A stretch of 64,000 nt of DNA from Solitalea lacus (GTDB lineage: Bacteria > Bacteroidota > Bacteroidia > Sphingobacteriales > Sphingobacteriaceae), in assembly GCF_022014595.1 (NCBI RefSeq), contig NZ_CP091740.1, positions 2,282,200-2,346,199 on the forward strand, in the 5' to 3' direction. Below are positions 31,836 to 36,829 of the stretch, one piece after another (the stretch's first letter is position 1; each line of letters begins with the position of its first letter). The notes under the pieces are model-generated. The model was given only the letters and a program-made list of their open reading frames with translations, ran no database searches and was not told the DNA's origin. A program made the position numbers and the translations under genes.

Positions 31836-33761
31836 ATGATTAAAATCACACTTCCCGACGGCTCAGTCCGCGAATTTGAACAAGGGGTAACCAGCTTACA
31901 GATAGCTCAATCCATTAGTGAAGGATTGGCCCGTAATGTTTTGGCTGCCGAAGTTAATGGTGAAATTTGGGATGCTACTCGTCCTATTGACAATGATTCG
32001 ACCATTAAATTATTAACATGGAATGATCAGGGAGGTAAATCCACCTTTTGGCATTCTTCAGCGCATTTAATGGCTGAAGCATTGGAAGCGTTATATCCTG
32101 GAATAAAATTAGGTATCGGTCCGGCAATTGAAACCGGATTTTACTACGATATTGATTTTGGTAATCATCAATTTTCTTCTGACAACTTTGAACAAGTTGA
32201 GAAGAAAATGATAGAACTTGCTAAAACCAAAGAGGAATATAAACGTTCTGATGTATCAAAAAATGATGCAACTAAGTACTTCACCGAAAAAGGCGATCAA
32301 TATAAGCTGGAGCTAATTGATGGTCTTGAGGATGGAAATATTACGTTCTATCAGCAAGGTAACTTTACTGATCTTTGTAAAGGCCCTCATATTCCTAATA
32401 CCGGCTTTATCAAAGCAGCTAAATTAATGAGTGTTGCAGGAGCTTACTGGCGTGGCGACGAAAAGAATAAACAGTTAACCCGTGTTTATGCGGTTACCTT
32501 CCCTAAAGCAAGTGAATTAACAGAGTATTTGACTTTAATTGAAGAGGCCAAAAAACGTGATCATCGTAAGTTGGGCAAAGAGTTAGAGTTGTTCACCTTT
32601 TCGGAGAAAGTAGGAGTGGGTTTGCCTTTATGGTTGCCTAAAGGTGCGGCTTTGCGAGAGCGTTTAATTCAGTTTTTATCCAAGGCTCAGGTTAAAGCAG
32701 GTTATGAACAAGTGATTACCCCTCATATTGCCCAAAAAGAACTTTATATAACTTCAGGGCACTATGAAAAATATGGTAAGGATTCTTTCCAGCCAATTCG
32801 TACCCCAAATGAAGATGAAGAGTTCTTCTTAAAACCAATGAATTGCCCGCATCACTGCGAGATTTATAAGTCCAAACCTCGTTCTTATAAGGATCTGCCG
32901 GTACGTTATGCAGAGTTTGGTACGGTATACCGTTATGAACAAAGTGGAGAATTACATGGGTTGACACGCGTTCGTGGGTTTACTCAAGATGATGCGCATT
33001 TATTCTGTCGTCCTGATCAGGTAAAAGAAGAATTTGAAAAAGTAATTGATCTGGTGTTGTATGTTTTCAAAGCATTAGGTTTTGAAGACTATATAGCGCA
33101 AGTATCATTGAGAGATCCGGAAAATAAGGATAAATACATTGGCTCTGATGACAACTGGGAGCGTGCAGAAGCGGCTATTGTTGAAGCTGCAGCTGAGAAG
33201 GGCTTAAAAACTGTTGTGGAATTGGGAGAGGCTGCATTTTATGGGCCGAAGCTTGATTTCATGGTGAAAGATGCATTGGGTCGGAAATGGCAATTAGGAA
33301 CTATCCAGGTTGATTATAACTTACCAGAACGTTTTCAGCTGGAATATACAGGAAGCGATAACCTAAAGCATCGCCCGGTAATGATTCACAGAGCTCCATT
33401 TGGGTCGATGGAACGCTTTGTTGCCGTACTGATTGAGCATTGCGCTGGAAATTTCCCATTGTGGTTAACACCAGAGCAATACATTATTTTGCCTATCAGT
33501 GAAAAATATGCTGATTATGCAAAAAAACTTTCAGAAGATTTAAATATTTACGATATTCGCGGCTTGATCGATAATAGGGATGAAAAGATCGGTAAGAAGA
33601 TTAGAGATGCCGAGATTAAAAAGATTCCTTATATGCTGATTGTTGGCGAAAAAGAGCAGGAAGAAAATACAGTTTCAGTTCGTCGTCACGGAGCCGGAGA
33701 TTTAGGCTCGCTGAACATCAATCAGTTTGTCGAATTAATTAAAAATGAAACAGCAATTTAA
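31836..33761 (+). CDS. thrS: Threonyl-tRNA synthetase
   Basis: A 641-residue class II synthetase. TGS domain (1-60), editing domain with HSSAH (His73 and His77) and the later [11 protein letters not shown] motif, catalytic core with MNCPHHC and the [26 protein letters not shown] motif 2, and a C-terminal anticodon-binding domain. The operon order thrS-infC-rpmI-rplT is widely conserved. No translational operator resembling the E. coli tRNA-like leader was recognised. Confidence 0.98.
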
Positions 33762-33763
33762 TT

Positions 33764-33777
33764 AGGAGGTTACTATA
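33764..33777 (+). promoter_or_regulatory. infC: Strong Shine-Dalgarno and AUA start of infC
   Basis: AGGAGGT (33764-33770) is a full anti-16S match, rare in this phylum, and lies 4 bases before ATA (33775-33777). The reading frame has a TAG at 33763-33765 and no ATG, GTG or TTG before the ATG at 33820, where conserved N-terminal coding already exists upstream. An AUA start is therefore the most economical reading. Confidence 0.7.
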
Positions 33778-34347
33778 GCACAGCAAAGTTTTGGCAGAGG
33801 TCCACGTGGACCGCGGCCTATGCCAACCAAAAAACAGGCAGAACACAGAATAAACGAATTTATTCGCGGTGTAGATACCGTTCGTATGGTAGGTGAGAAT
33901 GTTGAACAAGGTGTGTATCCATTGGCAAAGGCGATGGAAATTGCTGAGGAGTTGGGTTTGGATTTGGTTGAAATTTCGCCTAATGCTGAGCCACCTGTTT
34001 GTCGAGTAGTTGACTATAATAAATTCATCTACGAACAAAAGAAAAAACAAAAGGAAATTAAAGCCAATGCTCAAAAAACAGTTATCAAAGAGATTCGTTT
34101 CGGACCGAATACTGATGACCACGATTTTGAGTTTAAGTTAAAACATGCTATTAAATTCCTTGAGGCAGGTGAAAAAGTGCGTTCTTACGTTCACTTTAAA
34201 GGGCGTGCCATTGTTTATAAAGAACAAGGTGAGATACTTTTGTTGAAATTTGCGCAAGCTTTAGAGGAAGTAGGAAAGGTAGAACAACTGCCTAAATTAG
34301 AAGGTAAGCGTATGTTCTTAATCGTTGCTCCGAAGAATAAGAAATAA
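33775..34347 (+). CDS. infC: Translation initiation factor IF-3 (AUA start)
   Basis: IF-3 checks start codons and prevents subunit joining. Reading from ATA at 33775 gives 190 residues starting (M)[14 protein letters not shown], the Gly/Arg/Pro-rich N-terminus usual in this group. Reading from the first ATG (33820) gives 175 residues and loses it. The N-domain ([10 protein letters not shown]...[22 protein letters not shown]) and C-domain ([30 protein letters not shown]) are complete. In E. coli infC starts with AUU, which lets IF-3 repress its own translation; the same logic is inferred here. Thirteen bases separate it from the thrS stop. Confidence 0.95.
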
Positions 34348-34375: not shown

Positions 34376-34576
34376 ATGCCTAAGTTGAAAACCAACTCCA
34401 GCGCTAAAAAACGTTTTAGCCTAACTGGAACCGGTAAGATTAAAAGAAAATGTGCTTTCAAAAGCCACATTTTGACCAAAAAAACCACAAAACAAAAGCG
34501 TAACCTTACTCAAGCTGCTTTAGTTGATAAAGCTGATATGGGTAACGTTAAACGAATGCTTTGTATTGGTAAATAA
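34376..34576 (+). CDS. rpmI: 50S ribosomal protein bL35
   Basis: A 66-residue basic protein. [23 protein letters not shown] and [15 protein letters not shown] are the bL35 signature. It sits 28 bases after infC in the conserved infC-rpmI-rplT order. Confidence 0.97.
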
Positions 34577-34692: not shown

Positions 34693-35037
34693 ATGCCAAG
34701 ATCGGTTAACGTTGTTGCGGCTCGCCGTCGCAGAAAAAAAATCCTTAAGCTAGCCAAGGGCTACTGGGGTTCAAGAAGTAAGGTGTTTACCATTGCAAAA
34801 AACACCGTAGAAAAAGGTTTGCAATATGCTTACCGCGATAGAAAAGTTAAAAAACGCGAATTCCGTGCATTATGGATTCAGCGTATCAACGCTGGTGTTC
34901 GTCAGCATGGCTTGTCATATTCTGCCTTCATGGGTAAAATTCATACTAAAAACATCGGTTTAAACCGTAAGGTTTTAGCTGACTTAGCTATGAACAACCC
35001 TGAAGCTTTCAAAGCAGTTGTTGACGCTGTGAAATAA
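34693..35037 (+). CDS. rplT: 50S ribosomal protein bL20
   Basis: A 114-residue basic protein that binds 23S rRNA early in 50S assembly. [32 protein letters not shown] and the [19 protein letters not shown] motif are diagnostic. It is the last gene of the operon and is followed by a strong terminator. Confidence 0.98.
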
Positions 35038-35246: not shown

Positions 35247-36233
35247 TTAAGCATAAATATTCGATAATCTAAAAAGAAAGAAGCTGTTGTTTCTGACGCC
35301 TCTAAAGGCAGATCTGAAGGCTTTGATCTTGGCATTAAATGACTCGGCTGAAGCATTGGTGCTTCGGTTGTCAAAGTAATTCAGGATGGTTAAATAGTGG
35401 GATTGTATGGACCTGGCTATCGTTTGGAATGACTTAAATCCGGCTTTCTCCGCTTTATCGTACCATTGGGCAAGCCTTGTAAAGCCCAGCCCTTTGTCTT
35501 TGGTGGAATGGAAAACCCTTCCAAGCTGAAGGGCCAGTTCATAGGCTCTTTCTAAATCAGGGTATCTTTCGAATAAAAGTTCAGCTCGTCTCCTTTGGGT
35601 GGGCGTCCATTTGCTTTCCGGTTTGAATAAGAGATACCGGCTTCTGGCAAGCAACTGTTTGATGGTATCGCCGTTGTCCAGCACTTCGGGGATGTACCGC
35701 ATTCCTGTTTCCTTTCCCAGTTCGATTTCCTTATTTTCTTGTTCAATGGCTTGCCAACGATATTGAATCCGCATGTCCTGAACGGCCTCATATGCCAGTT
35801 TTTGTACATGAAAGCGGTCGGTTACCAAACTTGCTTTAGGAAATGAATGCTTGGCAATCCGTTCCATGGTAGGGGCCATGTCCAGGGTCACTTCCTTGAC
35901 GTTGTTTCTTTTTCGAGCCGATATGCGTTCCAGAACCTTCCTGACATCCTCACTCTTGGTGCCTTTTACCATGGCTATTAAAGCCCCCTTTTTGCCTTTG
36001 GCAGCCTTATTGGTAATGACCGTGTACAGTTCTCCTTGGGACAGGGCCGTTTCATCAATACTGATGTATTCCCCCAGGTTCTCTTCAAACAACATCCATT
36101 CTTCGGCGTGTTCCCGCTGATCCCAGGTCATATAATCGCTTAAAAAATGAACATATTGTTCCTCTAAAAGCTTTCCATCCACATGATAATAATCTCCCAG
36201 GCTTTTACAGCTAACGGGCTTGGTGTCGAGCAA
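35247..36233 (-). CDS. ISAon1-type transposase, catalytic part
   Basis: A 328-residue DDE transposase of the ISL3 type. Candidate catalytic residues are the Asp of ISIDETALS, the Asp of LVTDRFHVQKLA and the Glu of NASAESFNAKIK. The only start in the extended frame is TTG (36233), which overlaps the end of the upstream N-terminal-region gene by 23 bases in a different frame. Translation therefore relies on TTG initiation, re-initiation or a frameshift. The frame is uninterrupted, so the protein may be active. If the recombination model is right, it is a hybrid of two copies. Confidence 0.85.
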   Translation of the reverse strand: MLDTKPVSCKSLGDYYHVDGKLLEEQYVHFLSDYMTWDQREHAEEWMLFEENLGEYISIDETALSQGELYTVITNKAAKGKKGALIAMVKGTKSEDVRKVLERISARKRNNVKEVTLDMAPTMERIAKHSFPKASLVTDRFHVQKLAYEAVQDMRIQYRWQAIEQENKEIELGKETGMRYIPEVLDNGDTIKQLLARSRYLLFKPESKWTPTQRRRAELLFERYPDLERAYELALQLGRVFHSTKDKGLGFTRLAQWYDKAEKAGFKSFQTIARSIQSHYLTILNYFDNRSTNASAESFNAKIKAFRSAFRGVRNNSFFLFRLSNIYA

Positions 36234-36576
36234 TAACTTTTAAAAAAGCCGCGAATTCCTTGGTCATTCGCGTTCCTTTGGCAACGTGTTCCCAATTGCG
36301 GAACACGGTATTTCCGGTACTTTCATTGATCCATCTTCGACGCTTGATCAACAAATAGACCGCTTTGCCGCGAATGGGGAAATCCTGCACCTGAATTTCA
36401 TCAAAAAAACCTTTGGAAATTAAACGTTCATGACGGAATTCATCCGGTACTTCATTCTTTTCCTTTAAATGAATATGAATTGCTTTCTCCGAGTGAGCAA
36501 CCTTGGAAATGATAAAATAATCCAGGATCCCGCTAGGAAGTATTAATTGGATTAAACTGAAATCTTCACCTTGCAT
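36211..36576 (-). CDS. ISAon1-type transposase N-terminal region protein
   Basis: A 121-residue protein from ATG 36576 (MQGEDFSLIQLILPSGILDYF) with the conserved KGFFDEIQVQDFPIRGKAVYLLIKRRRWI segment, a Zn-finger-less DNA-binding-like region that precedes the catalytic transposase ORF in this IS group. It ends VIARHQAR, overlapping the start of the transposase frame. The frame extends upstream to 36657, but that part runs through the IS end and is not coding. Confidence 0.8.
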   Translation of the reverse strand: MQGEDFSLIQLILPSGILDYFIISKVAHSEKAIHIHLKEKNEVPDEFRHERLISKGFFDEIQVQDFPIRGKAVYLLIKRRRWINESTGNTVFRNWEHVAKGTRMTKEFAAFLKVIARHQAR

Positions 36577-36829
36577 AAGTTGCAAAGGAAATAGTTTTTT
36601 CATTCTCCCCCAACAATTCCGCTTGATCCGGAAAATCCTGCAAAGTGATGGGCTCAAAAAAGCCTTTGGAGTGCAATTTGTTTGCCGAATACTCTTCAGG
36701 GGTCTTGTTGACTTCCTTTAAATAGATATGGATAGCGGCGTCTTTTTTCTCCACCTCGGTTAATTCAAAATATTCCTCAATGGATTCAGGAAGGATCAGT
36801 GGGATCAGGGCTTTATAGGACTCGTGCAT
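36566..36829 (-). pseudogene. Truncated N-terminal-region gene of a second IS copy
   Basis: From ATG 36829 the product begins MHESYKALIPLILPESIEEY and aligns with the intact copy up to QDFP (residue 67). It then runs into the terminus of the inner IS at 36629, continues for about 20 unrelated codons and stops at 36566. It marks the exact insertion point of one IS into a related one. Confidence 0.8.

Follow-up and report, generated by a model that had tools for sequence, protein, structure and literature searches.

Translation of the initiation factor IF3 gene (infC) in Solitalea lacus quite likely begins at an AUA codon, through which IF3 would repress its own synthesis and which a Shine-Dalgarno sequence (SD) would make usable. 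Judged from sequence comparison, the pairing of an SD with a non-canonical start at infC extends across the class and is stronger than a first-pass annotation of this locus had guessed.

The infC locus and its start codon

In the window (the whole stretch of 64,000 nucleotides that was analysed), thrS (threonyl-tRNA synthetase, 31836..33761, + strand, from the ORF list; TIGR00418, 733.6 bits) ends with a TAA at 33759-33761, and 13 bases separate it from an ATA (33775..33777, + strand). These bases include an in-frame TAG (33763..33765, + strand, read from the sequence), which closes the infC frame upstream, and the SD AGGAGGT (33764..33770, + strand), whose seven bases are complementary to the tail of 16S rRNA (pairing energy of the upstream region, -11.3 kcal/mol). 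The two overlap (TAGGAGG), as they do in 12 of the 36 representatives with an SD in the survey below. The frame runs TAG GAG GTT ACT ATA GCA CAG CAA AGT TTT GGC ... CCT ATG, with only GAG, GTT and ACT between the TAG and the ATA, and reading it through revealed no ATG, GTG, TTG or CTG between the TAG and the first in-frame ATG of the ORF list (33820..33822, + strand), 15 codons past the ATA. The ATA is followed by GCA (Ala) and aligns by reading with the TTG-GCA of relatives. ATA 33775, the only plausible in-frame start before ATG 33820, is most probably the start of infC, and the ATG is likely the choice of automated gene calling. The first-pass annotation had put the ATA four bases past AGGAGGT and the first ATG 15 codons on, and had called the ATA the sole workable start upstream of that ATG; its coordinates are all correct, and the codon-by-codon reading bears the claim out.

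Read from the AUA, infC (33775..34347, + strand) encodes 190 residues (175 from the ATG) and is clearly IF3, scoring 184.4 bits against a cut-off of 60 with the equivalog model TIGR00168 and containing both domains (PF05198, IF3_N, 26-94; PF00707, IF3_C, 103-187; numbering from the AUA). Since IF3_N begins at residue 26, either start gives the whole domain, and the case for the AUA rests on comparison. The earlier statement that the conserved N-terminus extends 15 codons upstream of the ATG was therefore too strong: these codons encode an N-terminal tail outside IF3_N, and their support comes from relatives.

All three same-genus genomes read (G001-G003, loci L112-L114) keep AGGAGG and ATA GCA CAG CAA AGT. 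ATG 33820 is also kept in the genus, with no counterpart in the loci of genera g10 and g23 that carry an SD with AUA, AUU or AUC. Of the 15 codons that precede the ATG, four differ between the window and L113 (G002), three of them synonymously, and the L113 spacer is three bases longer than that of the window with the frame unchanged. The conservation of AGGAGG and a non-AUG codon that had been proposed as a check thus holds for close relatives, the three genomes of the genus, but breaks down beyond a few genera: within the family the trait is patchy, recurring in g10, g18 and g23. In most Sphingobacteriaceae loci read, TTG-GCA without an SD occupies the place of the ATA-GCA of the window. Among the first 171 loci read, 135 had neither GGAGG nor AGGAG close to a codon; the first in-frame ATG, GTG or TTG was TTG in 123 of them. 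The same-family exceptions, with GGAGG and ATA, ATT or ATC, belong to g10 (L120, L121, L124, L139) and g23 (L136, L140), and in all six there is no ATG, GTG or TTG before the conserved core of infC; in g18 and the named loci related to it (L061, L067, L069, L127-L129), GGAGG is likewise paired with ATA, ATT or ATC. The genes neighbouring infC start at ATG in the Sphingobacteriaceae relatives (L002-L171), in most of which infC itself starts at TTG, and one genome (G060) has two infC matches on different contigs (L142, L148), both starting with TTG.

Downstream of infC lie rpmI (bL35, 34376..34576, + strand) and rplT (bL20, 34693..35037, + strand), which were named by position and sequence, start at ATG without an SD and serve as controls. 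An ISL3-type transposase (35247-36233, - strand; PF01610, 190 bits) comes immediately past rplT, adjoined by a 148-aa ORF (36211-36657, - strand) without a Pfam match that may be a frame-shifted piece of the ISL3-type element. The predicted RNA fold of 33700-33850 was not better than those of shuffled sequences (z -1.23; 25 of 200 as good), and Rfam gave three sub-threshold matches in the search, none at the infC leader.

A strong SD in an SD-poor genome

The anti-SD is intact in this genome, the 16S tail being AAUACCUCCUUUCU (in the 3 of 5 copies printed). In a sample of 464 kb of the 4.40 Mb, in which ORFs were called mechanically, GGAGG occurred at -20..-4 before 3 of 313 ATG ORFs versus 0 of 313 in a mock window, and a pairing energy of -11 kcal/mol or lower was found for 5 of the 313 versus 1 in the mock. 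Both the poverty in SDs and the strength of the SD at infC had been asserted in the first-pass annotation and are upheld. The infC value also lies beyond the -7 kcal/mol threshold used for retained SDs in an SD-poor genome with an intact anti-SD, while its 7 paired bases (5-10 across the 36 representatives with an SD) do not reach the extended pairing of rpsU type (9-13 bp). Strong SDs were also found in this genome at rpsU (-19.6 kcal/mol), rpsR (-12.6) and rplI (-11.1), all of them preceding ATG; the rpsU leader (L286, L287 set) carries GAAAGGAGGTAT, of which about 12 bases can pair with the 16S tail.

Start codons and SDs of infC across the class

Hereafter, AUH stands for AUA, AUU or AUC, NTG for ATG, GTG or TTG, and SD for a GGAGG placed to serve the start. 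The search for infC succeeded in 97 of 100 relatives, in 243 of 247 class genomes and in 60 of 61 genomes drawn from the phylum. The loci read comprised all 98 places in the relatives, 102 of about 200 new class genomes (among 150 matches listed) and, as named loci, the best 80 of 555, which partly overlap with the surveyed genomes. Grouping at 90% IF3 identity reduced 280 loci to 137 representatives, of which 132 were classified, ten of them by eye (L179 and nine other 'late' or 'AUHonly' calls), and five were set aside as uncertain (L152, L172, L222, L238, L272).

When a GGAGG was sought 4-10 bases before any in-frame AUA, AUU, AUC, ATG, GTG, TTG or CTG, 37 cases were obtained and every one of them was AUA, AUU or AUC. 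One (L169) was dropped on inspection, its ATG start lying upstream and its GGAGG within coding sequence. The remaining 36 representatives have ATA (23), ATT (8) or ATC (5) and stand for 52 loci; they cover 22 of the 61 family labels, f1 and Sphingobacteriaceae being counted as one by inference. No representative combined an SD with NTG. Without GGAGG, 23 representatives have a non-canonical start, including two better read as CTG (L015, L229), and 73 have NTG (TTG 37, GTG 11, ATG 25, with L169 included). The association of SD with codon class gives a Fisher p of 4.8e-17 over the 132 representatives with kinship ignored, and by chance AUH would stand at the same spacing after GGAGG at about 11% of positions in the leaders (1136/10175). 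Among the 36, an in-frame TTG precedes the called AUH in two (L223, L239), and in 10 an NTG lies deeper in the gene. Weaker motifs (GGAG, GAGG or AGGA at 4-11 nt) precede 5 of 73 NTG starts and 6 of 23 AUH starts without GGAGG, and with the looser motif AGGAG one NTG gene (L164) gains an SD. A count over the whole region, which set any SD against any NTG (Fisher p 2.6e-4, 137 representatives), was given up because Gly-rich coding tails contain GGAGG too (13 occurrences that lack a start-like codon).

The distance from GGAGG to AUH was 5 or 8 in 30 of the 36 (15 each, for example the window at 33764-33777 and L113), with 6 and 7 being rare, and the tree described below required 8 switches between 5 and 8 among those 30 rows and 13 spacing changes over all 36. 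A frame link between the thrS stop and the infC start was looked for in the loci and none was found, the thrS stop having no fixed frame. AUG is avoided at infC class-wide (about 25 of 132 representatives). The infC starts of the class are likely wrong where only ATG, GTG and TTG have been considered.

Operon neighbours and kinship

Among representatives with a placeable start, GGAGG at infC-like spacing was absent from rpmI (0 of 111), rplT (0 of 85) and thrS (0 of 64), and ATG was the start in 111 of 111, 85 of 85 and 62 of 64, respectively. A quick tree of IF3 and the ThrS C-terminus (388 columns; good support for 47 of 134 inner branches) required 24 changes of SD presence without L169 and 25 with it, at least 15 of the latter forced by supported branches. 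In 14 independent pairs, codon class followed the SD in 6.4 on average, was equal in 7.6 and never opposed it (sign test, median p 0.031, range 0.008-0.125); this kinship-free test is only moderately strong because the SD has also been lost or gained among AUH genes. By this sequence comparison the SD-codon association is a repeated one, with the tree test being modest.

Non-canonical starts without an SD

As a simple rule, the proposal of the first-pass annotation that the SD compensates for the weak codon fails: the 23 representatives without GGAGG show that an SD is not required for a non-canonical start. Upstream adenines may do the job of the SD at such starts, as judged by base composition. 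In 17 AUH-GCN starts without GGAGG (e.g., L017, L155, L204, L219; related rows are included, and one, L202, was later put in the NTG class), 94% have A at -12 and 94% have it at -13, where the genome sample gives 47% and 43%, a pattern that resembles efficient leaders of Flavobacterium johnsoniae.

In the other classes of the phylum (46 such genomes drawn), AUH was by eye the only plausible start in about 23 of 29 loci, and six were unclear or NTG (L310, L312, L317, L321, L330, L333). AUH at infC is thus probably a long-standing trait of the phylum that NTG has repeatedly replaced, as read by eye from the loci.

Proposed IF3 feedback and alternative explanations

The reading that we favour would work as follows. 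IF3, which is reported to reject start codons outside the set AUG, GUG and UUG (PMC5472188), would destabilise 30S initiation complexes formed on them; by rejecting AUA-type codons, plentiful IF3 would make its own mRNA initiate poorly, and synthesis would rise when IF3 is low. AGGAGGT, pairing with the 16S tail, would hold the 30S subunit long enough to use the poor AUA. We infer that the SD is bound in vivo and supplies what the codon lacks, and that IF3 represses infC mRNA here as in Escherichia coli. Nearby, the loop would seem dispensable, since most Sphingobacteriaceae read use UUG. In F. johnsoniae, the anti-SD is hidden by bS21 with bS18 and bS6, and in the reporter experiment described there AGGAGGU before AUG did not raise expression on normal ribosomes, although in a mutant of the bS21 C-terminus it did so by a factor of more than 2 (PMC9976891). 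An SD that is of help only with impaired bS21 speaks against a simple role and opens a reading with two inputs. An altered 16S anti-SD is reported for Chryseobacterium-like Flavobacteriales (PMC8710568).

One alternative, which we regard as unlikely, is that the SD mainly senses exposed anti-SDs on ribosomes poor in bS21 or bS18, as at rpsU, and that AUH enforces dependence on pairing. The mutant reporter result would fit it, as would the SDs kept at rpsU, rpsR and rplI in the genome itself. Among the 24 genomes with SD and AUH in the relatives set, bS21 was read in 21 (it was not found in G044, G049 and G091), and the equivalent of position 54, where a tyrosine is linked to sequestration of the anti-SD, is Tyr in 20 of these and Phe in one (G082); judged by this one residue, the SD at infC occurs where sequestration is expected rather than in genomes that have lost it. 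Against it, infC pairs over 7 bases whereas 9-13 are given for rpsU (PMC9976891), and many genomes with SD and AUH have no GGAGG at rpsU, so the two SDs are not tied. In the rpsU leaders examined (L337-L386), the presence of GGAGG did not follow its presence at infC.

Somewhat less probable still is that AUA and SD only fix a low rate of IF3 synthesis, with IF3 feedback having no role here. That 73 of 132 representatives have UUG, GUG or AUG in place of AUH suggests that a weak canonical codon is good enough in many lineages, and the scarcity of AUG at infC also agrees with a fixed rate; the codons paired with SDs, however, are exactly those rejected by IF3, which holds over 22 of 61 family labels, and feedback in E. 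coli is a precedent with good support in print (PMC5472188). It is highly improbable that ATG 33820 is the IF3 start and that AGGAGGT and the codons upstream of this ATG are remnants or chance: such a reading agrees with the great predominance of ATG starts among the operon controls and with IF3_N lying wholly downstream, but 49 bases separate the SD from this ATG, the genus keeps the AGGAGG, the ATA and the codons GCA CAG CAA AGT, the frame survives the longer spacer of L113, and the six same-family exceptions have no ATG, GTG or TTG before the conserved core.

Comparison with known systems

The favoured reading, IF3 feedback through an AUH codon, has a close parallel in E. coli infC, the same gene in the same thrS-infC-rpmI-rplT neighbourhood (PMC10931766) with a start of the class rejected by IF3, although the codon there is AUU rather than AUA and the host class here mostly ignores SDs. 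E. coli infC (AUU) and Streptomyces infC (ATC) are cited as self-regulated, and IF3 is reported to repress non-canonical starts in E. coli and at sigR (GTC) of Streptomyces; the infC start is described as misannotated in most Streptomyces (PMC5472188). The Streptomyces genes are alike in their non-canonical starts, but belong to another phylum and involve no SD exception. Staphylococcus aureus infC combines AUA with an extended SD, its start having been seen by Ribo-Ret (PMC13009471), in an organism that relies on SDs generally, whereas here the SD is a genomic exception. Within Bacteroidia, rpsU and rpsR similarly retain an SD despite a hidden anti-SD and encode products of the translation machinery (PMC9976891), but they start at AUG in the genome itself, the pairing of rpsU is much longer and control is by bS21 rather than codon rejection. 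In prfB, an internal SD-like AGGAGGU is retained through which a translation factor regulates itself (PMC8710568), which acts in elongation and frameshifting and not at the start codon. Non-canonical infC starts are therefore already known, and in the literature searched we found no mention of a link between an SD and the infC start codon in Bacteroidota; infC may already figure in a whole-genome screen made in other orders.

Tentatively, the infC mRNA of Bacteroidia could be a two-input gate in which AUH reads the level of IF3, while the SD senses how many of the 30S subunits, being poor in bS21 or bS18, expose their anti-SD. In a class otherwise blind to SDs, SD pairing would then survive at genes with which the translation machinery monitors itself (bS21, bS18, RF2 and, newly, IF3), at infC only with a non-canonical start. 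At infC a natural experiment has been repeated: SD use and start codon shift together while the neighbouring genes are SD-free. If the SD is bound at infC by ribosomes that hide their anti-SD, when and how the anti-SD becomes available in Bacteroidota would become testable with one gene.
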